Part shown: positions 16,782-64,000 of the stretch, in pieces
Position numbering within the stretch: the stretch's first letter is position 1
Layout: the number at the start of each line of letters is the position of its first letter
Source of the DNA: Polychytrium aggregatum
Lineage: Eukaryota > Chytridiomycota > Chytridiomycetes > Polychytriales
DNA: 64,000 nucleotides
Reading direction: 5' to 3'
Assembly: GCF_025602895.1 (NCBI RefSeq)
Contig: NW_026516220.1
Span: 620,001 to 684,000, forward strand
Made by a program: the position numbers and the translations under genes
Notes under the pieces: generated by a model
Database searches by the model: none
What the model was told of the DNA's origin: nothing
Seen by the model: only the letters and a program-made list of their open reading frames with translations

Positions 16782-19184
16782 CTAGCGACCAAGGGCCCTG
16801 AGCTTCGTCTTGGCGTCTGCGTCTCCCTGATCGGCTGCTTTGCGATACCAGAGCACAGCTGCCTCAATGCTCTGGGCAACCCCAACGCCATGCTTGTAGC
16901 AACTGCCAAGAGCATACTGGGCAGCCGAGTTGCCCTGCTCGGCCGATTTGGTGTACCATGCGGCTGCCTTGAAGTAGTCCCGGGACACCCCGTTTCCAGT
17001 GCAGTAGCATAGACCAAGGTTGTTTTGGCCAGAGGCATTGCCTTGCTCGGCCGATCTGCTATACCACTGGACCGCCGTAAGGCTGTCCTTTGGGACGCCG
17101 ATGCCTTTCTCGTAGCAGTCGCCGAGGTTGTTTTGGCCAGAGGGGTTTCCTTGCTCGGCTGCTTTACGATACCACTCGACAGCCTTGCAGCGGTCGACAG
17201 TAACTCCCCAGCCTTCCTCGTAGCATCTCCCAACCATGTTTTGTGCATATGAATTGTCCTGGTTGGCTGCGCGGGTATACCATTTGATCGAGGAGGCGTG
17301 GTTGATCGGCCTTCCCCATCCGTTCTTGTGGCAGTGCCCAAGCCAGTGTTGGCTCGGGTCGTAGTCCTGGTTGGCGAGCTCCTCGAATATGGCTACGGCT
17401 TTGGTCTGATCCTTGGCAGTCCCCAGCCCACCGACAAAACATACAGCGGCGAGATGCTTACACAGCCAGTCCCGATCCGAGCCCAGCTGGCACAGCTCAA
17501 AGAATCGCCTCGCTGCAGGTGAATCAGATCCGACGGGGCTGCTTGTGTCCATGCACTCTTCGCCCAATGGAAACCCGTCCGCCTTGCTTTGGCGGATAAG
17601 CTCGATGCCGGCTTGCTTATCGAGTGATGTTCCGCGGCCGAGATAGCACAGCCAGCCCATCATGAAGGTGGCGATCGATTTGAGTATCGGATCAGCGGCC
17701 CTGCTCGTTTCTTGCCAGCAAACAAGGGCATCGATGTCATTTTGACCAAGCCCGATGCCGGCAAAGTAAAGCCAGCCGAGGTGAAAACAGGCCTCAGGAT
17801 GCTTCTGGTTTGCAGCAGTCTGGAGGAATTGGGCGGCTTGGATCCAGAGAGGATCGGTGGCGAGCTTGTTGTTCGAGATGATTGTGGCAACATTCACGCA
17901 GGAATCCGGGTCGCCCTTTCGAGCCTGTTGCAGCAGACGACGAGAGACGTCAGGAAGCGACTCCACTTCTTTGGATGTTGGGGTCGATGGCGGTGGCGCG
18001 AACGAACTGACTCGTGGGATGTTTTGGGATGCTGGGTCTTTCCACCAAGATTGCAGCAGGACAGGACGAGAGACATCAGGGAGCGAATCTGCTTTGGATG
18101 TTGGAGACGGTGGTGGCGGCGCGAACGAACTGACTCGTGGGATGTTTTGGGATGATGGATCTGGCTCTGGCACTAGTTTTGAACTTGACACTGAGACCGG
18201 TGGGGAGGCTGATTCTGACACTGATTCGTTCGTCGATGCAGGAAGCGGGTCTGAGGGACCTGATGGGTATGATGGGCTTGGCAACTGGTACGGCTCCAGG
18301 AGGGCGAGGATCTTGGGGAAGGCTGGGCGTTGATCAGGCTCTTGGTGCCAGCAGCATTCGATAAGCGACCAAACATCATCGGGGATGCCGTCGAGTCGTT
18401 TCGGACGGTTTCCGATACGGACCTGTCTCTCGATGACTCGTTCGTGCATCGGCTGGTCGTTGTCTGTGACCCAGATCGGGTCAGCGTCGTTGAGGACCTC
18501 GTATACGGTGATGGCAAAGGCAAAGACGTCGGTCTTCATGGTGGTGCCGCTGGGTCGATCGTCATCAAGCATCTCGGGAGCCATGAATCCATCGGTCCCG
18601 ACGACGAACGAATTGGCCTTGCTTCGATTCAGCGAAGCCGATGTGTTTTTGGTGCGGGAGAGGCCAAAGTCCGAAATCACGGCGCCATAGTGCTCGTCCA
18701 GGAGGACGTTGGCCGCCTTGAGATCGCCGTGGATGATGCCGCAGTCATGCAGATATGTCATTCCCGAGGCTATCTGGTGAAGCAGCCGGAGTTTCTCCTC
18801 GAGCGGGACAGGGCTGTCCGGGTCAGCGACGTAGTTGCGGAGAGTGCCGTTGGGCATGAACGGCGACACCATGAAAGGCACGATCGATTTGCCATCGACA
18901 TCCCGGTCGCAAGCACCAACGAGGGGCAGGATGTGTGGGTGCTTGAGCTTCTGCCAGATTTCGATCTCGCGGTGATAATCGGCGAGCTCCTTCTTGGTGC
19001 AGGTGCCGAAGAGCTGCTTGATGGCGACTGGGGAGCCAAAATAGTCGCCGGTGAAGACCTCGCCAAAGCCACCGCGGCCGATGGGGTTGGCTGAGCGATC
19101 GGTGATATCACTGGGCGAGATGAACCACGAGGGCCTGTTGCTGGCTGCAGAGCTGGCGGGCGCTGGCACGGCCTGGTTGGCCAT
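16782..19184 (-). CDS. TKL-like protein kinase fused to C-terminal Sel1 repeats, copy 1
   Basis: Single exon, 800 residues from ATG at 19184. The kinase domain spans about residues 28-290: glycine loop IGRGGFGEVF (35-44), Lys56 in VAIKQL, catalytic HGDLKAANVLL (Asp154, Asn159), DFGLSR (Asp172) and APE as MAPEML. All catalytic residues are present, and HGDLKAAN fits the TKL group. A Ser/Pro-rich linker follows (about 310-410) containing a duplicated block around NIPRVSSFAPPP. The rest is Sel1-type repeats (CY..G.GV..D...A..WY.KAAEQG), a superhelical protein-binding fold. A non-canonical mid-block, MMGWLCYLGRGT through GFPLGE to FFELCQLGSDRDW, recurs in the related genes at 54711, 56744 and 59602. 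No signal peptide or membrane segment is seen. The biological target is unknown. Confidence 0.88.
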   Translation of the reverse strand: MANQAVPAPASSAASNRPSWFISPSDITDRSANPIGRGGFGEVFTGDYFGSPVAIKQLFGTCTKKELADYHREIEIWQKLKHPHILPLVGACDRDVDGKSIVPFMVSPFMPNGTLRNYVADPDSPVPLEEKLRLLHQIASGMTYLHDCGIIHGDLKAANVLLDEHYGAVISDFGLSRTKNTSASLNRSKANSFVVGTDGFMAPEMLDDDRPSGTTMKTDVFAFAITVYEVLNDADPIWVTDNDQPMHERVIERQVRIGNRPKRLDGIPDDVWSLIECCWHQEPDQRPAFPKILALLEPYQLPSPSYPSGPSDPLPASTNESVSESASPPVSVSSSKLVPEPDPSSQNIPRVSSFAPPPPSPTSKADSLPDVSRPVLLQSWWKDPASQNIPRVSSFAPPPSTPTSKEVESLPDVSRRLLQQARKGDPDSCVNVATIISNNKLATDPLWIQAAQFLQTAANQKHPEACFHLGWLYFAGIGLGQNDIDALVCWQETSRAADPILKSIATFMMGWLCYLGRGTSLDKQAGIELIRQSKADGFPLGEECMDTSSPVGSDSPAARRFFELCQLGSDRDWLCKHLAAVCFVGGLGTAKDQTKAVAIFEELANQDYDPSQHWLGHCHKNGWGRPINHASSIKWYTRAANQDNSYAQNMVGRCYEEGWGVTVDRCKAVEWYRKAAEQGNPSGQNNLGDCYEKGIGVPKDSLTAVQWYSRSAEQGNASGQNNLGLCYCTGNGVSRDYFKAAAWYTKSAEQGNSAAQYALGSCYKHGVGVAQSIEAAVLWYRKAADQGDADAKTKLRALGR

Positions 19185-28012: not shown

Positions 28013-29398
28013 ATGTCTCCGTCCTTGACCGATGTATTCCCCATCCTGATCTCCAGCGACGTCTTTATCGCTGCCCTGGATCTGCCGACCTTTGCCAGAC
28101 TTGTCCGGCTCTCCAGATATGCCCGCGCCTTCCTGGACTGCGACTTTTACTGGAAGCGGATGCTGCTCCCGCATCTCGGAGCCAACGCCTCGGTCCTCGA
28201 CAACCTCGACGGCAACCTGGACGTCAAGGCAGCCTTGCAGGGCCTCTTCTGTCTCGCGATGCGCCAGCGCCCCGACCAGCCCGACTCGCCGCCTTCCTTT
28301 CAGAAGGAGATTGGCTTCTGGTGGCAGGTCTATCACCACCAGGGACTGATGACCCGGCTGCAGCAGATTCCATGGCAGAAGCGGACCCCTCAGACCCCGC
28401 CGCTCTTCGCATCGCACCCGATGCACAACCCCATTGGGCAGCTGGGTGGGTCCGAGGACGAGGGCATGGCAAAGTTCCGATGGCTCGATGGCCGTCGGCT
28501 GATCGAGACCAACCCGAACTGGGACCAGAACCTGGTCGTGGGCCGGTACTCGACCCCGCCCATCTTCTCGGTCGTGCGGGTCGAGGCCCTGCGCTCGCTG
28601 CTGCCCCAGGAGCGGTTCATTCTCGAGCAGGCCGCCCACATCTCGACCCTGAGCCTCGTCAACTGCAGCTTCTCGACGCTCTCGGGCTGGCCAGACGAGC
28701 TGTCCAATGTCGAGGCGCTGGACATTGTCTTTTGTCTCTCGGCCTCGTTCGATCCGCTCTGTTTCTCGCCCTGGGTCACCGTCGACAACATGACCAGCTG
28801 TCGCGGACTCACGATACCCGCCCCCGATCTCCGTGGGATGCCCTCGACCATGGACATTCTCAAGGAGTTGGATCTGTCGCGCTGCGAACACATCCAGAGC
28901 CTCGCTGGACTGCCTGCCTCGCTGCCGTCCCTCGAGACGCTGATCCTGCCGCCGACCCTGACGACCCTCGAGGGCCTGCCGCCGGTCCTGGACTCGCTGC
29001 GGGAGCTGAACATGCTCCAGTGCGATCTCCTGGCCGACCTGCGGGGCATGCCGCAGCGACTGCCCGCGTTGACTGATCTCGATCTCCCGCCGGCCCTGCG
29101 ATCCCTTGCCGGCATCTCGCAGCACCTCGACGCCTTCGACGACCCCAACATGCTGTTCAAGCTCGAGCAGCTGACGGACCTCAGCGGCTTCCCGAGCCGC
29201 ATGCCCGCCATGAGGTCGCTTCTGATCCCCTTTCACGAGCGCTTCGACATTGGCTCGCTGCTCGTCCTGGCACAGACACACATCCCGTACCTGTCGAAGC
29301 TGCACGTTCCCGCCCGTTTCGCCAGCAACAGATCGTTCCAGTCGATCGCAACGACGCTCGGACGAGCACAGCCGCAGACAGCCATCATCCTGTACTAA
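28013..29398 (+). CDS. F-box-like leucine-rich repeat protein
   Basis: Intronless, 461 residues from ATG at 28013. The first 55 residues (LDLPTFARLVRLSRYARAFL then FYWKRMLL) look like a degenerate F-box, the motif that links substrates to SCF ubiquitin ligases. From about residue 230 on there are irregular leucine-rich repeats of the type LRGMP..L..L..LDLP, e.g. LKELDLSRCEHIQSLAGLP and LETLILPPTLTTLEGLPP. No transmembrane segment or signal peptide is seen. An SCF substrate-receptor role is an inference from the layout; the F-box match is weak. Confidence 0.7.
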   Translation: MSPSLTDVFPILISSDVFIAALDLPTFARLVRLSRYARAFLDCDFYWKRMLLPHLGANASVLDNLDGNLDVKAALQGLFCLAMRQRPDQPDSPPSFQKEIGFWWQVYHHQGLMTRLQQIPWQKRTPQTPPLFASHPMHNPIGQLGGSEDEGMAKFRWLDGRRLIETNPNWDQNLVVGRYSTPPIFSVVRVEALRSLLPQERFILEQAAHISTLSLVNCSFSTLSGWPDELSNVEALDIVFCLSASFDPLCFSPWVTVDNMTSCRGLTIPAPDLRGMPSTMDILKELDLSRCEHIQSLAGLPASLPSLETLILPPTLTTLEGLPPVLDSLRELNMLQCDLLADLRGMPQRLPALTDLDLPPALRSLAGISQHLDAFDDPNMLFKLEQLTDLSGFPSRMPAMRSLLIPFHERFDIGSLLVLAQTHIPYLSKLHVPARFASNRSFQSIATTLGRAQPQTAIILY

Positions 29399-53388: not shown

Positions 53389-53973
53389 TCAGCGGAGGTG
53401 ATTCAGCAATAGATTGATCAGGTTGTTTCGTTCCTCTTGTGCTCCGTACGAGTCTCTTCTTTCATTTCCTTTCTTTTCATCTATAAACGGCGGATCACTC
53501 GATTGATCCGCTCCCTTCGCTTCCATGATGTTGGTCTTTGGTCAAGTCCTGTCTAAGTCTTGTGATGTGAACACGATTGATATGGTGAGACTGACCGTGA
53601 CAGGACAGCGAACTTCCCGGACCGCACTGGTATTGCCTTCTGCAGCCCATTGTGGTCATATCGACGATGGGACTCGATCCTCGGATGATGGTTGTCGCAT
53701 CTGTGGTTCGGGCACACCTATCCATTCCAGTGACTGTCATCTTCCCAGACGATTTGGAAAGTGATCGCCACAGGTCGTCACGGACGGCGCACAGACACGA
53801 GTGAGTGAACGATCAGGAGAGAAGCAAGGACACAATGCAGGCCGAGAGGGAGAGCGACAGAGATGAGTGGGAGTGCCCGTTCTCATGTCTCTCCTGTTGC
53901 TTGATCAAGGATTGATTCCTTTGTCGTCCATTGGCAGCCAGGGTATCCATCATCTGGCGACAGGATCCCAATC
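53389..53973. other. Intergenic region 3' of A-T-R copy 2
   Basis: This is the 3' flank of the A-T-R gene up to the LINE remnant. I see T-rich sequence just after the stop (53420-53480) that probably belongs to the 3' UTR, and no gene. Confidence 0.45.
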
Positions 53974-54422
53974 CACGGGTGCTGTTCGGTGAACATCATC
54001 TCGCACTTCGGGGGCGAGAACTGGTATCGGTTCTCGATGCTGCGGGCCTCGCAGATGTCGAGGAGGCGCTGGGTCTGGTTGGGGCGGCAGATGAGCACCC
54101 CATCGTCGGCAAACCACAGCGAGTTGACCTGGACGGGTCGTCCTCGGGTGGTGGTTAGGGTCGTTCCACCGTCTGCCCGGAGTTTCCCAGGGAGGTCGTC
54201 GATGAACACGCTGAACATCAGCGGGCTCAGGACCGATCCTTGGATCAGTCCCTTCTGCAGCCAGACCGGATTGGACCGACGACTCTTGCTAACGACTTGA
54301 ATCTTCACATCGTCGAACATGGCCTTCAAGAGCCTGAGGGTGATCGTACACGGGGTGCGCTCTTCAATCTTGTCCCAGAACTTCTCCCTCCAGACAGTGT
54401 CGTAGGCGCCTTGATGTCGAGG
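53974..54422 (-). mobile_element. Degenerate LINE reverse transcriptase fragment
   Basis: About 450 bases are nearly identical to about 62712-63158 of the longer LINE ORF at the right edge. They encode the central RT part: YDTVWREKFWDKIEERTP, GLIQGSVLSPLMFSVFIDDL and the catalytic FADDGVL. Both ends are cut off abruptly, and one base is missing in the stretch gtcgtaggcgcc compared with the longer copy (gtcgtaggccgcc), which breaks the frame at the 5' side. There is no endonuclease, no poly-A and no obvious target duplication. It is a dead remnant, not a gene. Confidence 0.88.
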
Positions 54423-54710
54423 GGATGAGTGTAACCGAGGGGTCAAGAATGGACAAAGATTGGATCGCCTATAGTGAGGTGCGTCTGGCCTTGGACGACG
54501 AGAATGGAGAATCTGATTCCATGTTCAATATCTGTGGCAGTGCGTGTGGCAGTGCAGGAGCAACAACGAGTCCAGCCATCAAACCATCGGATCGAGCCAG
54601 GCTTGTGTGTGTGTGTTCGATGGCCAGTGTTTGGTTTGCTTCGACACAAATTCCCTCACTGTCTCCTGTCCAGCTCCGTCACCACTTGTCTCCATCCAGT
54701 CTCCGTCAAC

Positions 54711-56288
54711 ATGGCCAGCATGAACGAGCCTGCTTCAACTACAGCATCTACCACCCACCAAAGCCAAACTGAAGCCAGAACAACCTCGTCGATGCCCAAT
54801 ATCACCCAGCACTCGCTCGACCACAACCCAGACATCTTCACCATCATATGCTGCAACGACAGCTTCCAGATCGCCCTCGATCACAGCACCATCGCAACCC
54901 TCCTTCGAGTGTGCAAACGAGTCCGCCCTCTCCTGAGCTCCAAGGTGCCTCGCTTCCACAGCTGGTGGCGGAATGTGGGGCTGTGGCGTCCAAATGGATC
55001 GCTGCGGTTCGCACTCACACCGAGCGAGCAGATTGCCCTCTCGCTGCATTGCGAATATGAAGGCATAGCCGACCGATCCTGGCTTGATAATCAAGCCGAT
55101 CAGGGAAATGCAACTGCATTGTTCTTCTTGGCATGGATCCACCAAATCGATCTCGACAGCCAGCAGTCTGTGAACAAGCCCAAGCGGGAGGCCATCTGCC
55201 AGCAAATCATCTTCTATCTGGAGAAGGCAGCCCAAGCTGATCATCCAATGGCCCAGTACGACCTAGCTGGGTGTTATCGCAACGGACTCGGTGTCGATCA
55301 AGATCCCACCAAGGCTGTCGATATGTTTCGCAGTCTTGCAGAATGTGGAATCCCACAAGCTCAAGTCGCCCTCGGCGGTTGCTATGAGAATGGTGAAGGT
55401 GTCGATCAAGACTACGACACAGCCATCGAGTGGTATTCCAAGGCTGCCGACCAGGGAAGCGAAGACGGCCGTCTACATATTGTGTTTCTCCGTGGCTGGT
55501 TCTCGTTCATCGGCCACGGTGTCGAACAGAGCGATGCTGATGCCTTCAACCGCTGGCATGAAGTCAGCACCAACTCCACCAACCCAGTTCTCAAGCCCAT
55601 CGCCACTCACATGGTTGGATGGATGCACTATCTTGGCCGGGGCACCGTCCAGGACAAGCCGAAGGGTGTCAATATCATCCGAGAGAATCGATCGGATGAG
55701 TTCCCACTCGGGGAGTCCGAAAGTCTGGCAGCGAATTGGGCCGATATCAACTCTGACTCGCCCGCACTACGCAAGTTCCTCGGCATGTGTCAGTTTGGAT
55801 CGGATCATGAATGGTTGTGCAAGCACCTGGTCGCTGTGTGTCTCATCCATGGATTTGGAACCAGACAGGACCAGGAGAAGGCCGCAGGTATCTTTGAACA
55901 GCTCGCCAACGAAGGCCATAGCGTTAGCCAGCTTTGGATCGGAAGGTGTTACAGCTTTGGTAAAGGAGTCTCGAAGAACGACGAGAAGGCATTCGAGTGG
56001 TGGAGCAAGTCGGCCAACCAAGGCAATTCGTATGGACAGTGGATGGTTGGCTGTTGCTACTACAGTGAATACGGAGTTACCCGGGACCACACAGAAGCAA
56101 CCGAGTGGTTCCGCAAGTCGGCCGAGCTGGGAAATCGGTACGGGCAGAATATGCTCGGCGACTGCTACAAAAATGGCTGTGGTGTGACCAAGGACATCGA
56201 CACTGCCGTTTTCTGGCTTCGCAAGGCCGCCGAACAAGGTTTCGAAAATGCCATCTACAAACTCAGGCAACTCGACCAGTGGCTCTGA
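54711..56288 (+). CDS. Sel1-repeat protein with unrecognised N-terminal module, copy A
   Basis: Intronless, 525 residues from ATG at 54711. After a Ser/Thr-rich leader, about residues 28-110 form a module shared with the gene at 59602: PDIFTIICCNDSFQIALDH, then LLRVCKRVRPLLSSKVPRFH. I do not recognise it; its length and place recall F-box-like heads, without a convincing match. Sel1-type repeats (A..DLAGCYRNGLGVDQDPTKA and others) fill the rest. They include the special mid-block HMVGWMHYLGRGT to EFPLGE and FLGMCQFGSDHEWLCKHL, which also occurs in the kinase-Sel1 proteins. Sel1 superhelices act as protein-binding scaffolds. No signal peptide or membrane helix. It neighbours kinase-Sel1 copy 2, convergently. 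Confidence 0.85.
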   Translation: MASMNEPASTTASTTHQSQTEARTTSSMPNITQHSLDHNPDIFTIICCNDSFQIALDHSTIATLLRVCKRVRPLLSSKVPRFHSWWRNVGLWRPNGSLRFALTPSEQIALSLHCEYEGIADRSWLDNQADQGNATALFFLAWIHQIDLDSQQSVNKPKREAICQQIIFYLEKAAQADHPMAQYDLAGCYRNGLGVDQDPTKAVDMFRSLAECGIPQAQVALGGCYENGEGVDQDYDTAIEWYSKAADQGSEDGRLHIVFLRGWFSFIGHGVEQSDADAFNRWHEVSTNSTNPVLKPIATHMVGWMHYLGRGTVQDKPKGVNIIRENRSDEFPLGESESLAANWADINSDSPALRKFLGMCQFGSDHEWLCKHLVAVCLIHGFGTRQDQEKAAGIFEQLANEGHSVSQLWIGRCYSFGKGVSKNDEKAFEWWSKSANQGNSYGQWMVGCCYYSEYGVTRDHTEATEWFRKSAELGNRYGQNMLGDCYKNGCGVTKDIDTAVFWLRKAAEQGFENAIYKLRQLDQWL

Positions 56289-56743
56289 TTCTCGAGTTCC
56301 TTTGGGCTCCCCCTCCAGTCATCCTTGTCGCGACACTGAACATCCAACCAGAGCAACCAAGAAACCTGTCCTGGCGCGATGATGCCAAACAGGGGTCTTG
56401 CGATGTAGCACGGATGAAGCGCCAGTGGCATGGTTGCGTTGTATTTGACATTCTACGAGTTCAATACATCCAATTTTCATAGCAGCGCTGCCTCAAAACA
56501 GTCGCTGGTGTCGATCGACCGAGTTAATCATCGCATGACTTGTCAATGACAGCAACCTAGATACTCTCCAACACAGGGCCCAAAGGGTCGGGCAAAGCCA
56601 AAAACAGGGGTGGGCACCCATTGCAGAGAACTTGGTGGAGTTGATATCTGCTTGTCTTGAATTCGTTAAAGTTGGCCGAGTACCACTTGACGGAGTCGCC
56701 GATACGTCGGCGGGAATTTGTACTGGATCCAGTGTCTTCTCCT
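56289..56743. other. Convergent 3' flank between Sel1 copy A and kinase-Sel1 copy 2
   Basis: This is non-coding. Its first 250 bases resemble the region after Sel1 copy B (61120-61380): both contain a ttgtatttgacattc stretch followed by repeated attcaatacatcc-like sequence and then gatcgaccgag. The duplication therefore extends past the stop codons. Confidence 0.6.
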
Positions 56744-59074
56744 TCAGCGATTTCTCAATAAAGCCAGTTGTTTTATTGAGTTTGGATCCCCTTGAGCAGC
56801 TGCTTGTTCATGCCAGTAGATTGCTGTATTGATATTTTTGGCCACCCCATAGCCATACTCGTAGCACCAGCCGAGGTAACACTGAGAATATATGTGACCT
56901 TGATTCGCGGCCTTCGTGTACAACTCTACCGCCTTGGAGTAATCTTGGGGAACACCTCGTCCACCGTAATACATGTTTCCTAGGCAACATAGGGCATCAA
57001 TATCCCCGAGATCAATCGATTTGGTAAACCACTCGACAGCTTTCTCATAGCTCCGGGGGACTCCTTCAGCATTGTGGTATCGTTGACCGAGTTGATTCTG
57101 AGCATAGGCATTTCCCTGAGTCGCGGCCTTGGAGTACCACTGGGCAGCCTGAGTGTAGTCTTTCGCTATACCGTTGCCGTCACGAAAACAGTCTCCGAGA
57201 ATATACTGAGCTTCCGCCATTCCCCTCTCGGCAGCCCGGCGATACCACTCGACAGCCTGGGTCATGTCCTTCGGAACGCCTTGACTGTTCGCATAGCGGA
57301 GCCCGACATTCAGAATCGACCACAAGTGGCCTTGAGCTGCACCTCGGCGGTATAGCTGGAGGCATTTCCCATAATCCAGGGGAACGCCAAGACCCCCCAG
57401 GTAGCAATCAGCAAGTGCATACTGGCTGATGGCATGACCTTGGTCCGCGAGCTCTTGCAGCAACCGCACGGCGAGTTGCGGGTCTTTGTCGGCTCCAAAG
57501 CCGCCGATCAAGCAACGTGCAACCAGATGCTTGCAGAACCAGTCGTGCTCCGTTCCGAGTTGGCACAAGCCGAAGAATCGAGCGGCAGTCGAGGAGGAAC
57601 ATTGCGTTTCCAGTCCATGGATTGAGCTCTCGCCATATGGAAACTCGGCAGTCTTGCTCTCGCGCAGGAGTTGGTTGGCCCTGGGTTCGTCTTGGCGAGT
57701 TCCACGGCCCAGGTAGCAGCACCAGCCCATCATGAACGAGGAGATGGGTTTCATGGTGGCGTCCTTCGTCTTGTCATGAACAACTTGCCAGTAGGCGAAG
57801 GCCTCAGTGTCGCTCTTGGTGATGCCGATGCCCGTGAAATGCAGCCATGCAAGCTTGGAGGCGGCCTCGACACTCCCCTTGTCGGCGGCTGCCTGATACA
57901 GCTCGGCGGCAGTTGTCCAGGCAGGGTCATTGGCCGGCTTGCCGTCCGACATCGTGTGGGCGGCAGTGATATGGGCGTCGGCGTCACCACGCTGGATACC
58001 CATGATCACTGCCCGGGGGAGGCCATAGCCGGTGGTGAGTCTCTGGGCCAGAGTCGGGAACTCGAGTCGACGTGGCGACGAAGAACCGGAGGAGGGAAAA
58101 CCTGGGCGGTCCATATTTAAACCCCGCATCTGTTGGGAGAGGTCAGATACAGCGCGGGGGCTGTCGATTGAATCTTGTGGATGATTTATACCCCTGAGAG
58201 CAGCGAGAAACAAAACTATGTCCTCGAAGGCGGGACGTATGGCGGGGTCTTGGTGCCAGCACTGCTCAATGAGTGACCAGATCTGGTCGGGGATGCCATC
58301 GAATCGGGCAGGTCGACGGCCATTGCAGACTATTCGTTCGATTGTTCGGCTCCTCAGCGCTTGACCATCGGCAGAAACCCAGACAGGATCGGCGTTATTC
58401 AGGACCTCGTACATGGTGATGGCGAAGGCATAGACATCCGTCTTGATCGTGGTGCCAGTCGGATTCTCATCGTCGAGCATCTCGGGAGCCATATATCCCT
58501 CGGTTCCTCCGGTGGGGCCGTTGCTTCGATTGGGGTTCATCGAGGCCGAGGTGTGCTTGGTTCTGGACAAGCCAAAGTCAGTGACGATGGCCTGGAAGGA
58601 TCTGTCCAAGAGGACGTTCGCTGCCTTGAGGTCGCCGTGGATGATTCTTCTGGCGTGCAGATAGGCCAGGGCCGACGCAACCTGGTACAGAAGACTGAGT
58701 TTCTCCTCGAGGGTGACGTTGTTGTTGGCCACATAGTCACGAAGCGTGCCGTTTGGCATGAACGGAGAGACCATGAAAGGAACGATCTTTTCGCCGGCAT
58801 CGCCCTTGTTGCAGGCTCCGAGGAGGGGGAGGACGTGTGGGTGGCTGAGATTCTGCCAAACCCCAATCTCATGGTGGTAGCTGGCCAGTTCGCGGTCGTT
58901 TGGAGCGCCGAGGAGTTGCTTGATGGCGACTTGGGTGCCAAAGTAGCTGCCAGTGAATACCTCACCAAACCCGCCACGGCCGATGGGGCTGGCTGAGCGG
59001 TCGGTGATGTCGCTGGGCGAGATGTACCAGGACGGTCTGTCCTGGGGCTGGTGGACAAAGGGTTTGCTGGTCAT
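56744..59074 (-). CDS. TKL-like protein kinase fused to C-terminal Sel1 repeats, copy 2
   Basis: Intronless, 776 residues from ATG at 59074. The kinase domain has the glycine loop IGRGGFGEVF (31-40), Lys52 in VAIKQLLG, HGDLKAANVLLD with Asp148 and Asn153, DFGLSR with Asp166, and MAPEML. All catalytic residues are kept. It starts with the same DRPSWYISPSDITDRS-type lead-in as copy 1 (RPSWFISPSDITDRS). A shorter linker (about 290-360) precedes the Sel1 repeats, which here number about eleven or twelve and include the family mid-block MMGWCCYLGRGT to EFPYGE to FFGLCQLGTEHDWFCKHL. The last repeats (CCLGNMYYGGRGVPQDYSKA and following) are canonical. Substrate and upstream signal are unknown. Confidence 0.88.
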   Translation of the reverse strand: MTSKPFVHQPQDRPSWYISPSDITDRSASPIGRGGFGEVFTGSYFGTQVAIKQLLGAPNDRELASYHHEIGVWQNLSHPHVLPLLGACNKGDAGEKIVPFMVSPFMPNGTLRDYVANNNVTLEEKLSLLYQVASALAYLHARRIIHGDLKAANVLLDRSFQAIVTDFGLSRTKHTSASMNPNRSNGPTGGTEGYMAPEMLDDENPTGTTIKTDVYAFAITMYEVLNNADPVWVSADGQALRSRTIERIVCNGRRPARFDGIPDQIWSLIEQCWHQDPAIRPAFEDIVLFLAALRGINHPQDSIDSPRAVSDLSQQMRGLNMDRPGFPSSGSSSPRRLEFPTLAQRLTTGYGLPRAVIMGIQRGDADAHITAAHTMSDGKPANDPAWTTAAELYQAAADKGSVEAASKLAWLHFTGIGITKSDTEAFAYWQVVHDKTKDATMKPISSFMMGWCCYLGRGTRQDEPRANQLLRESKTAEFPYGESSIHGLETQCSSSTAARFFGLCQLGTEHDWFCKHLVARCLIGGFGADKDPQLAVRLLQELADQGHAISQYALADCYLGGLGVPLDYGKCLQLYRRGAAQGHLWSILNVGLRYANSQGVPKDMTQAVEWYRRAAERGMAEAQYILGDCFRDGNGIAKDYTQAAQWYSKAATQGNAYAQNQLGQRYHNAEGVPRSYEKAVEWFTKSIDLGDIDALCCLGNMYYGGRGVPQDYSKAVELYTKAANQGHIYSQCYLGWCYEYGYGVAKNINTAIYWHEQAAAQGDPNSIKQLALLRNR

Positions 59075-59601
59075 CTGGAAGGAGATGGGTGGATGTGGAG
59101 TGCAGGGAGGAGCGGTAGAAGGCGGGCATTTTCGGCTTCTTGGTCAGGAAACCCTTGTCAGAGTGACTCCTGCGGCACAGGCAGCACGGCCAGGACACAA
59201 GCGCGCACAAGAGCGTGTGGTTTGTGCTGCGCAATTAACACGTGAACATTGCGCAGCAGCTCGATCGGGACAGCACTTGAACCATCCCGAATGACAGGCG
59301 GGGGGAAACAGTGCTTGATAGACACTCGGGGATATCATATCTCCCGGACATAGTCCATGATGCCAGTTCATATCAAACACTCGGCTAACAACGGCTGAGT
59401 GGATCAGATCATCCCCTTGGGTATCCGCCCTCTGAAGTCAGTCGAAGATTCCATTACCTTTGCGGCTGGGTCCAACGCTGGATCCAGCCAAGTTCCTGGT
59501 TTGGTGACTGTGCCACTCCCATTCCATTCCACCCATCCCGCCTCCTGGACATCATCACTGCACTCTCCTCACATCCTAGTCTGTTGCATCATTCAGCCAA
59601 C
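59075..59601. promoter_or_regulatory. Divergent region between kinase-Sel1 copy 2 and Sel1 copy B
   Basis: These 527 bases separate the two divergent starts and so contain both promoters. No gene or clear motif is seen. Confidence 0.5.
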
Positions 59602-61119
59602 ATGGCTCGATTGGCCATAGACGACTACAATCCTGACATCGTCACCATCATATGTTGCAACGACAGCTTCCAGCGTGCCCTCGACCACAACACCATCAAG
59701 ATCCTGCTCAGAGTATGCAAACGAGCCCGACCCCTCCTGAGCTCCAAGGTGCCTCGCTTCCACCGTTGGTATCAGAGCATGGAGCTACTCAATCCAGATG
59801 GACAGATGCGGGTCGGACTCACACCAAGCGACGAGATTGCCATTTCACTTCACTGCGACGATCCAGTCACCGCCGACCGATCCTGGCTTGAAGATAATGC
59901 CACAGACGACCGATCCTGGCTCGTTGCCCAAGCAGACCATGGCAATACTGCCGCGTCGTATTTCCTGGCTCGGGTGTTGCAATCTGAGATCGGTGTACAG
60001 CGATATCTGACTTGGTTTGAGCTGAATCCCACCCCGCCGCGAATCTTTTACCATCTGAAGAATGCAGCTGAGGGCCAACATTCAATGGCGCAGTTCCACC
60101 TCGCCCAGTGTTATCGCAACGGAATTGGAGTCGAACAATCCCCGGCCAAGGCTGTCGAGCTGTATCGCAGTCTTGCAGATCGCGGAATGGCCCAGGCCCA
60201 AGTTGCCCTCGGCGGTTGCTTTGAGGGCGGCGAAGGTGTCGAACAAGATTACACTACGGCCATCGGGTGGTATTCCAAGGCTGCCGACCAGGGCAACGAA
60301 GACGGCCGTCTCCACATCATGTTTCTCCGTGGATGGCTCTCGTTCATCGGCCACGGTGTCGAACAGAGCGACAAAGATGCTTTCCAAAGCTGGCAGGAAA
60401 CTAGCACCCAATCCACCAACCCAGTTGTCAAGCCCATCGCCACTCACATGGTCGGATGGATGCACTACCTTGGCCGGGGCACCATGCGAGACGAAAAGAA
60501 GGGAATCAAGATGATCCGAGAGAACAGGTCGAATGAATTCCCGCTAGGGGAGGGCGAGTGCCTTACACCCTCTTACTGGGGTGCTATGTCTAACTCACCC
60601 GCACCCCGCAAGTTCTTCAATCTCTGCCAGCTGGGATCGGACCGTGACTGGCTGTGCAGGCATCTCATGGCTTTGTGTATGTTATTTGGATTTGGAACCA
60701 CCCCGGAAGTGGAGAAAGCCGCTGGCATCTTTGAGCACCTTGCCAACCAAGGTCACAGCGACAGCCAGTTGTGGATTGGAGATTGCTACTATCATGGTCT
60801 GGGAGTAACGCATGACAAAGAGAGGGGCTTCCAGTGGTACAGCAACTCTGCCAACCAAGGAAACTCGTATGGACAGTGGATGGTCGGTCATTGTTACTAT
60901 CACGGATCCGGAGTTCCTAAAGACTACGCCAAGGCAGTCGAGTGGTTTCGCAAGTCGGCCGAACAGGATAATCGATACGCACAAGGTGATCTGGGCGAAT
61001 GCTACAAACATGGCCGTGGTGTCCCACAGAACATCGACAGTGCCGTCTTCTGGTATCGCAAGTCCGCCGACCAGGGTTTCGATTTTGCCATCGCCAAACT
61101 CAATGAACTCGGACTGTGA
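59602..61119 (+). CDS. Sel1-repeat protein with unrecognised N-terminal module, copy B
   Basis: Intronless, 505 residues from ATG at 59602. It is a close paralogue of the gene at 54711: the N-terminal module (YNPDIVTIICCNDSFQRAL, LLRVCKRARPLLSSKVPRFH) starts almost at once, without the Ser/Thr leader. The segment after it has a short internal duplication (TADRSWLEDNATDDRSWL). Sel1 repeats follow, with the mid-block HMVGWMHYLGRGTMRDEKKG to EFPLGE to FFNLCQLGSDRDWLCRHL. It ends YKHGRGVPQNIDSAVFWYRK and a final half repeat. Head to head with kinase-Sel1 copy 2, and immediately before the LINE ORF. A cytosolic scaffold role is inferred from the fold only. Confidence 0.87.
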   Translation: MARLAIDDYNPDIVTIICCNDSFQRALDHNTIKILLRVCKRARPLLSSKVPRFHRWYQSMELLNPDGQMRVGLTPSDEIAISLHCDDPVTADRSWLEDNATDDRSWLVAQADHGNTAASYFLARVLQSEIGVQRYLTWFELNPTPPRIFYHLKNAAEGQHSMAQFHLAQCYRNGIGVEQSPAKAVELYRSLADRGMAQAQVALGGCFEGGEGVEQDYTTAIGWYSKAADQGNEDGRLHIMFLRGWLSFIGHGVEQSDKDAFQSWQETSTQSTNPVVKPIATHMVGWMHYLGRGTMRDEKKGIKMIRENRSNEFPLGEGECLTPSYWGAMSNSPAPRKFFNLCQLGSDRDWLCRHLMALCMLFGFGTTPEVEKAAGIFEHLANQGHSDSQLWIGDCYYHGLGVTHDKERGFQWYSNSANQGNSYGQWMVGHCYYHGSGVPKDYAKAVEWFRKSAEQDNRYAQGDLGECYKHGRGVPQNIDSAVFWYRKSADQGFDFAIAKLNELGL

Positions 61120-61768: not shown

Positions 61769-64000
61769 TCATGGGGGCAATATCCGTTGACACGAGCGGC
61801 CTCTTCCGACGCAGCTCTGGGTGTGGGTCCGGCACATCGCGACGAACTCTCCTCGGCTCTTCGTGCAGGAGACACACAGCCGATAGTGGCCATACGGGTG
61901 TCCGGGGAAGGCACCGAGGGTCCATCTTACCATCATGTTGTGATAGTATCGATCTCTCTTGGGCCCTCGCTCGGCCCACAGTCCCGACATGGTCGTCATC
62001 ATGGTGCGGGCCGAAGTCAGTTCCTTTGACCTGTCGAAGCCTTGCGCGTCATCGATGTGAATCTGCAGCTTGACTGGTGGCCCTGGGAGCTGGTAGTAGC
62101 CGTTCCTGAACAGCTCCTTCATCGGGTAGTCCGGCTGGCACTGCTCTTTCAGCACGATCAGCTGCCGCCAGTACTCGTCGAGGTAGAACTGGGAGCCGAG
62201 GGATGCATCCATCAGGCTGGGCTGGATGCGGGAATATCTCAACACCATCGAGACCATCTTGTCGTTGTGGTCCAGACGGTCTTCCCAGACGGCTCGGTTC
62301 TGGAGGGCCAGCTGCTTGAGGCGGTTGGGCAGGGTGATGAGTCCGCATCCGAGGTGCATCGCTCCGTAGGATGTGTTCCGCACCACTCTGAAGAGTCGGG
62401 TCGGACAGTGCATCTGTGCTCGTCTGAGTATCACGGCTTGCTGCTTCGTGAGCACTTCGAGGGTCAGTCCATACTCGAGCATGGGCCGAACGAAGGTCTT
62501 GAACACCCTCGTCACTGTCTTGGCCGAGTATCGACCCAGACTCATTCCGTGCTTCACCAGCTTGTCGGCGGCGCCTTGGGCCTTGTGGGTGAGGTTCTGG
62601 ATCTGGCGATCCATCCTGAAGCCGTTGGTGTCGACGATGGCTCCGAGGTACCGGAACTCCTTGGCGACTGGCAGCTCCTTGCCGTACAGGTACACCTTGG
62701 CATCCTTCTCTGGGTGCTGTTCGGTGAACATCACCTCGCACTTTGGGGGCGAGAACTGGTATCGATTCTCGATGCTGTGGGCCTCGCAGATGTCGAGGAG
62801 GCGCTGGGTCTGGTTGGGGCGGCAGATGAGCACCCCATCGTCGGCAAACCACAGTGAGTTGACCTGGACGGCTCGTCCTCGGGTGGTGGTTAGGGTCGTT
62901 CCACCGTCTGCCCGGAGTTTCCCAGGGAGGTCGTCGATGAACACGCTGAACATCAGCGGGCTCAGCACCGATCCTTGGATCAGTCCCTTCTGCAGCCAGA
63001 CCGGATTGGACCGACGGCTCTTGCTAACGACTTGAATCTTCACATCGTCGAACATGGCCTTCAAGAGCCTGAGGGTGATCGTACATGGGGTGCGCTCTTC
63101 AATCTTGTCCCAGAGCTTCTCCCTCCAGACAGTGTCGTAGGCCGCCTTGATGTCGAGGAACACCAGGGAGTACTCCTCGCCCGCCAGCTGGCGGTCCTTG
63201 ATGAGCGTGTCCAGGCCAAAGATCTGGTCGAGGGTGCCTCGCTCGGCCCGGAATCCACCTTGGGCAATGTCCATCAGTCCGAGCTTTCGGTTGAGCAACG
63301 GCAGCAGTGCTCGCTCGACAACCTTTCGGCAGACCTGGGTCAGTCCAATCGGCCTGTACATTGCGGGGTCGAGGGGCGATCCCTTGTTCTTGTAGACGGG
63401 ATGGATTAGCACTGTACTCCACTCAGTTGGGACCACGGACGCCTTGATGGCTGCTCCCATGAGGAAGTAGAGCCATATCGAGACTCTATATGCGTTGGGC
63501 TGGAGCAGTTCGATCTTGATCCTGTCCGACCCTGGGGCCTTCCTTCGTGGTGTTGTAATGATCGCCTCCTTGATTGCCCGTGGGCTGATTATGGGGAGCT
63601 CGTAGCTGGGGGGGAGTCGTCTACGCTCTTGGCTCGGTGTAGGGGGCTCGAGTGTTCGATCGAACCCGTTCGCCGTGGCCGTTGAGTCCGCCGAGACTCT
63701 GCCGAAGTGGCAGACGAGTCTCTCCAGCGCTTCGTCAGAGTTGTCGAATCGGTGGGCACCTTCCCGGGCCTTTCGCTTCTGCATGGCCCCGAGCGTCTTG
63801 GAGAGCTCAGTGCTGTTCATGCGGTTGATTTTCTCGGCCAGTTTCTCGTTGCTCGCTTTTCGGCACTTTCGGATGGCCCGGTTGAGGTTTCGTCTGACCA
63901 CCCTGATTTTGTCTCGAAGGTTCTCCTTCATGACAGGGTCCGTGTGGTGCCTCTTGAGCTGCTTCTGGAGCTTCTTCCTCTCCTTGGTCAGATGACGGAT
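61769..64000 (-). mobile_element. Non-LTR (LINE) retrotransposon reverse transcriptase ORF, 5' part beyond the right edge
   Basis: An uninterrupted frame of more than 740 residues runs from the right edge to a stop at 61769. It is still open at base 64000, so the start and any endonuclease domain lie outside. After a basic helical linker come RT motifs in order: APGSDRIKIELLQ, PVYKNKGSPLDPAMYRPIGL, GGFRAERGTLDQIF, FLDIKAAYDTVW, GLIQGSVLSPLMFSVFIDD, catalytic FADDGVLIC, and YLGAIVDTNGFRMDRQI. A C-terminal Cys/His cluster (RLCVSCTKSR, CRTHTQSC) could be a zinc knuckle. The layout fits non-LTR elements, and the catalytic Asp pair is intact. A broken copy of its middle lies at 53974. Confidence 0.9.

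Follow-up and report, generated by a model that had tools for sequence, protein, structure and literature searches.

The window analysed here (64,000 bases, positions 620001-684000 of contig C90, in a genome of 64.7 Mb and 418 contigs) contains four genes in which one of two different N-terminal heads precedes a common body of Sel1 repeats, and comparison with related genes of the same genome supported the swapping of heads on this body. The open frames listed for the four genes in an initial annotation, made from the sequence alone, were all present (Table 1); G+C content of the window was 55-63% per 4-kb block. Pfam Sel1 was matched in all four genes (E-values from 2.1e-59 to 3.5e-73; 196-240 bits vs. 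a cut-off of 30.7) and a complete kinase domain in two of them (PF07714; 174 and 176 bits), which agrees with the common body and two head types described in that annotation. The kinase-less head, hereafter called the module, is about 88 residues long, and no Pfam family was matched by the heads of the two module-headed window genes. One of the kinase-headed genes (L009) is convergent with the module-headed gene on one side and divergent to that on the other, with 527 bases between the latter two.

Table 1. Features of the window, with positions counted from its first base.
Feature	Coordinates	Strand	Remarks
Second kinase-headed Sel1 gene of the window	16782..19184	-	kinase motifs present
LRR protein (Pfam LRR_4), N-terminus weakly head-like (TDVFPILISSDVFIAALDLPTFARLVRLSRYARAFL)	28013..29398	+	i-Evalue 4.8e-05, 2983 open frames
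Module-headed Sel1 gene, long Ser/Thr-rich leader, class B	54711..56288	+	head at about residues 37-125, Sel1 body after it
Kinase-headed Sel1 gene (L009)	56744..59074	-	motifs GRGGFGEV, VAIK, HGDLKAAN, DFG, APE
Intergenic region of 527 bases, separating L009 from the module-headed gene divergent to it	59075..59601	.	
Element of about 66 bases, upstream of the module-headed gene 59602-61119	59479..59544	+	
Module-headed Sel1 gene, short leader, class A	59602..61119	+	head at about residues 8-97

Columns GW..YLGRGT, FP.GE and CQ.G....W.C.HL of the body were invariant across the four-row alignment of the window genes. The initial annotation had considered this mid-block to be distinct from generic Sel1 repeats; it reads instead as degenerate Sel1 repeats around a variable insert of about 30 residues, as judged by entropy, and a non-Sel1 domain was rejected on the basis of the alignment, the entropy and the body model. 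In this model, residues 310-347 formed a low-confidence stretch matching the variable insert. Among the best 150 of 705 candidate mid-block matches in the genome, 130 were preceded by a listed head and one by a listed kinase, and 19 had neither before them; a later head query provided a head for three of these 19, and the 16 still without an assigned head make further head types possible.

The history of the heads was followed in a tree built from 64 different mid-blocks, of which 50 came from module-headed genes, 12 from kinase-headed genes and two from genes broken by frame. The tree was rooted at midpoint, with bootstrap not settled and five row labels assigned by hand. Six kinase bodies, including both window kinases, fell outside a 58-row set holding all 50 module-headed bodies (support 89/96), and the remaining six of the 12 were placed inside this set, among the module-headed bodies. 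The latter comprised a group of four (L069, L070, L071, and L076; support 96/91), L074, grouped with two module-headed bodies (97/92), and L072, placed next to the body of the gene divergent to it, with weak support (95/50). Several kinase loci had been picked for being paired, and six of 12 should therefore not be read as the proportion in the whole genome. The kinase label changed four times on the tree, at least two of these changes being forced by well-supported branches, against a mean of 11.1 after shuffling. Bodies thus grouped by head far above chance, a pattern that the initial annotation had set against its proposal, yet at least two swaps were forced, and the proposed shuffling of heads on a common body was borne out.

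Both head types were present in high copy number. With a head query, the best 150 of 271 candidates were scored and the weakest gave an E-value of 2e-35, so recurrence of the head was not due to chance; two further head queries returned the best 150 of 266 and the best 150 of 269 candidates. The union of the queries and three added places amounted to at least 175 head places genome-wide, and a kinase query gave 139 matches of 313 candidates, corresponding to at least 134 genes once domains of the same gene were merged, both counts being lower bounds. Many of these places were near-identical copies on different contigs, as if both haplotypes had been kept in the assembly, and haplotype copies are included in all counts unless stated as collapsed. 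Chitin_synth_1N and IFT46 domains were both found in the genome, which points to a flagellated (zoosporic) fungus. The 25 kb contig C266 contained the same kinase/module pair twice in mirror image, an apparent large inverted repeat that may be biological or an assembly artefact. Two unusual kinase genes were also observed: a single open frame of 1201 residues with three consecutive kinase matches (C123:30767-33337), and a kinase gene on C32 (L077, 458-4171, minus strand) whose body is of the WD40 and not of the Sel1 type and which is divergent to a module-headed Sel1 gene.

The layout of neighbouring genes was derived from estimated gene edges, with 3' edges estimated from open-frame lengths and haplotype copies collapsed by hand; it replaced an earlier comparison of 5'-5' distances, a measure whose geometry favours divergent pairs. 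Kinase and module neighbours within 3.1 kb made up 21 collapsed loci, 13 of them divergent, six convergent and two tandem. With respect to a 1:1:2 expectation this was an excess of divergent (P = 4e-4) and a deficit of tandem arrangements (P = 1e-4); when two C279 loci with near-identical pairs were counted once, 12 of 19 were divergent (P = 5e-4). All other family neighbours within the same distance, also collapsed by hand, comprised five divergent, nine convergent and four tandem pairs (n = 18). These were also often on opposite strands, and part of the divergent bias therefore reflects a general opposite-strand layout. In the two near-identical C279 pairs (L070 and L073) head and body were in different frames in both genes, which could be due to frameshifts or short introns. 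Another module-headed Sel1 gene (C24:687-688k, L036) was divergent to a gene with a head and an LRR body, with about 620 bases between the head domains.

Neighbours were not specially alike in their bodies, contrary to the matched set of partners suggested initially. Mid-blocks of the divergent window pair were 40% identical, and the partner ranked 23rd of the 50 module-headed bodies; over the eight rankable pairs the ranks were 23, 40, 27, 3, 2, 16, 30, and 4 of 50. These ranks led to rejection of the idea that neighbours generally have matching bodies or undergo gene conversion, with L072 as a possible exception. Divergence of kinases and of their partners was weakly correlated (Mantel r = 0.38, P = 0.026, 11 pairs).

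Upstream regions of 56 distinct module-headed genes, some of them near-copies, were divided by leader: 21 belonged to short-leader genes, and nearly all of the 35 others to genes with a long Ser/Thr-rich leader. The element found upstream of the class A window gene was shared by 16 of the 56 upstream regions when its own is counted; the 15 others carried it about equally far from the head, with 91-97% identity over 38-66 bases. Divergent pairs on C90, C266, C365, C279 (two), and C68 had 347-601 bases between head domains and were all short-leader, whereas those on C32, C1, C80, C35, and C97 had 1057-2037 bases and were all long-leader (this classing leaves out C223 and C66). All 12 unpaired short-leader genes tested shared upstream DNA with the pairs, in whole or in part, and in three of these genes the match was confined to the head-nearest stretch. 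In addition, the region upstream of L041 (C68:634.6k) retained a 59-base match to the inside of the kinase gene, 3' of the kinase domain, and about 1.1 kb including this domain was missing as compared to L069. These matches and the remnant at L041 indicated that divergent pairing is probably ancestral for the short-leader class and was followed by losses. Reverse-transcriptase matches were located upstream of five of the 56 module-headed genes. Within the window, a reverse-transcriptase-like frame, by eye a non-long-terminal-repeat retrotransposon, lies just downstream of the gene cluster (61769-63931, minus strand), and a related piece is found near 53886-54524 (minus strand).

Kinase motifs were largely kept. 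VA(I/V)K, HGDLK, and DFG were present in all 13 kinase domains read and the GGFG core in 12; the preceding (first loop) glycine was changed to alanine in L075, L077, and L078, and L072 had lost both the glycine loop and the APE motif. Tyrosine kinases were among the PDB matches of the window kinase L009; "TKL-like" (tyrosine-kinase-like) is the label of the initial annotation. In module-headed genes, the pooled ratio of nonsynonymous to synonymous substitution rates (dN/dS) was 0.35 for the head, 0.30 for the N-terminal Sel1 part and 0.29 for the mid-block; it was highest for the insert within the mid-block (0.54), followed by the C-terminal Sel1 part (0.49). These values come from 130 of 1275 pairs with dS between 0.05 and 0.6, pairs that are not independent. 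The pattern fits constrained genes in which the head appears to be maintained and the end of the repeat body changes faster, and is no proof of diversifying selection. Broken copies were also found, with frame changes in L070 and L073 and stop codons in copies on C361, C241, C235, and C372.

The core of the short head comprises about 45-50 residues and was also found at the N-terminus of other proteins. Among 2983 open frames it was matched in L036 (E-value 2.8e-15), in the window LRR gene (4.8e-05) and in the L008 gene (2.7e-04); Pfam confirmed an LRR body in the window gene, and inspection by eye did so in L036, whereas for all other places "LRR-type head" serves just as a label. When the L036 head was used as query, 111 places were obtained at E-values up to 10, of which the 64 with E-values below 1e-4 were carried forward, so that this related head occurs in at least 64 places. 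Module heads and LRR-type heads were aligned by hhalign with a probability of 96.8 over 51 columns. When the LRR-type heads (23 rows) were compared with 20 F-box domains of the same genome, a score of 23.6 (probability 31.5) was obtained untrimmed, and scores of 25.1 and 25.8 (probability 48.8 and 73.5) after trimming, for which the maxima in 150 column shuffles each were 18.7 and 13.8. The combined heads scored 24.7 against F-box (maximum of 14.4 in 100 shuffles), and 14 control slices of Sel1 and kinase scored between 7.4 and 14.1. The match spans what we take to be F-box helices 2-3 and the Trp region behind them, without helix 1. Skp1-family matches were located at four places in the genome. 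Curated F-box models did not recognise the head, either in Pfam or among the listed PF12937 places. "F-box-like" is accordingly used here as a reasoned lead and not as membership, the similarity resting on the LRR-type heads. Kinase and F-box-like heads occur with Sel1, LRR, and WD40 bodies in at least four combinations here.

We tentatively read these genes, at somewhat less than even confidence, as a lineage-specific intracellular family for signalling or recognition, in which kinase or F-box-like heads were shuffled onto repeat bodies. The two N-terminal effector heads would be a tyrosine-kinase-like kinase and a divergent F-box-like adaptor, and the bodies would be Sel1 for both, LRR also for the F-box-like head and WD40 also for the kinase. 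The Sel1 body would bind the target, which the kinase-headed proteins, if active as kinases, would phosphorylate or signal from, whereas the module-headed proteins would most likely bind Skp1 and bring a Skp1-cullin ubiquitin ligase to targets of the same body kind. Where kinase and module genes lie head to head, their regulation could be shared. A more elaborate form of this proposal, which we hold to be quite improbable, is a two-armed system in which divergent kinase/F-box-like pairs would act on the same target class via their Sel1 bodies, one by phosphorylation and the other by ubiquitylation, with heads and Sel1, LRR or WD40 bodies exchanged to form an innate-immune-like or self-recognition repertoire.

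Several results weigh against the preferred reading. The Sel1-type head alone scored 13.8 against F-box, a value equalled by seven of 150 shuffles and non-significant; no Pfam family was matched at E-values up to 10 by the heads of L036 and L008 or by the one module head searched, and for the window LRR gene Pfam returned nothing but LRR families. By eye, no PF12937 place coincided with a head place among the matches listed, and a PDB profile search with the LRR-type heads returned no F-box. Moreover, F-box had been picked by eye from the sequence and was the sole domain family so compared. Both models of the short head were helical and of low confidence, with predicted local distance difference test (pLDDT) blocks of about 31-48 and 60-69, and the 33 Foldseek matches looked through for comparison with the F-box fold were uninformative. 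As for pairing, the divergent share of 13/21 in kinase/module neighbours vs. 5/18 in other family pairs was borderline (P = 0.054), and vs. module-module and kinase-kinase pairs alone (3/9) it gave P = 0.24. A divergent listed module gene within 3.1 kb was found for just 19 of the 134 kinase genes, and pairing of all kinases was rejected as too strong a statement.

The negative results on the head are compatible with an alternative in which the short head is a small helical docking or oligomerisation module. As in the initial annotation, the kinase-less proteins would then be partners or competitors of the kinase-headed ones, either binding the targets of the latter or tethering them. The absence of a Pfam match for the head, its non-significant direct comparison with F-box, and the invariant residues of the common body are all in line with this alternative, but the head core also starts other proteins (with LRR bodies where examined), the wider family to which it belongs is F-box-like, and the bodies of neighbours are not specially alike. 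We consider this explanation to be on the unlikely side, and the F-box-like adaptor reading of the head is rated somewhat higher. The pairs could also be the product of a birth-and-death, retrotransposon-rich expansion, in which the divergent layout would be left over from duplication of an ancestral block of kinase and module genes, and the neighbours would have no joint function today. The partial matches of all 12 unpaired short-leader genes, the remnant at L041, the reverse-transcriptase matches, the broken copies and the minority of kinases that are paired all speak for this explanation. The constraint on module genes and the kept kinase motifs suggest, however, that many copies are maintained, and long-leader module genes are also divergent to kinases without sharing the element; we regard this explanation as unlikely.

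Some known systems resemble parts of this family. Paired plant nucleotide-binding leucine-rich repeat (NLR) immune genes are a possible parallel: they are arranged head to head, and the two recognition proteins that they encode are related but differ in their effector part; here only a minority of kinases is paired, and, unlike in plant NLR, Pfam reported no NB-ARC or NACHT in the four window genes. The eEF2 kinase also joins a kinase to helical repeats, and three of its entries ranked low among the fold matches obtained with the Sel1 body model, but it belongs to another kinase class and is encoded by one conserved gene instead of a shuffled family. F-box proteins with LRR, WD40 or Sel1 bodies share the use of one adaptor head on different repeat bodies, the combination with Sel1 being listed for poplar and soybean in the available parts of two reports (PMC9505895, PMC5412402); they differ in that the head described here was missed by curated F-box models and its profile similarity runs via the LRR-type heads. 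Expansions of Sel1-like and kinase families are described in mycorrhizal fungi (PMC8647823, PMC9453076), and in Rhizophagus irregularis and other Glomeromycotina large families of Sel1-like proteins and of serine/threonine/tyrosine kinases were proposed to help the fungi perceive their environment and interact with it (PMC8647823); homologs of the MLKL family that bear Sel1 were reported only in Glomeromycotina (PMC8778642), all as given in the accessible parts of these sources. The fungus studied here likewise has Sel1 and kinase genes in high copy number. The present genome, in contrast, looks like that of a flagellated fungus, and the accessible text on the Glomeromycotina families mentions neither a second head type on the same body nor divergent pairs.

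For the expanded fungal Sel1 and kinase families a role in perception was thus proposed, with no mechanism named in the parts of the sources available. Here the same body is joined to a kinase in some genes and to a possible adaptor head of ubiquitin ligases in others, and some of these genes lie head to head. This provides natural head swaps and testable pairs, and what such families recognise and do becomes directly testable.

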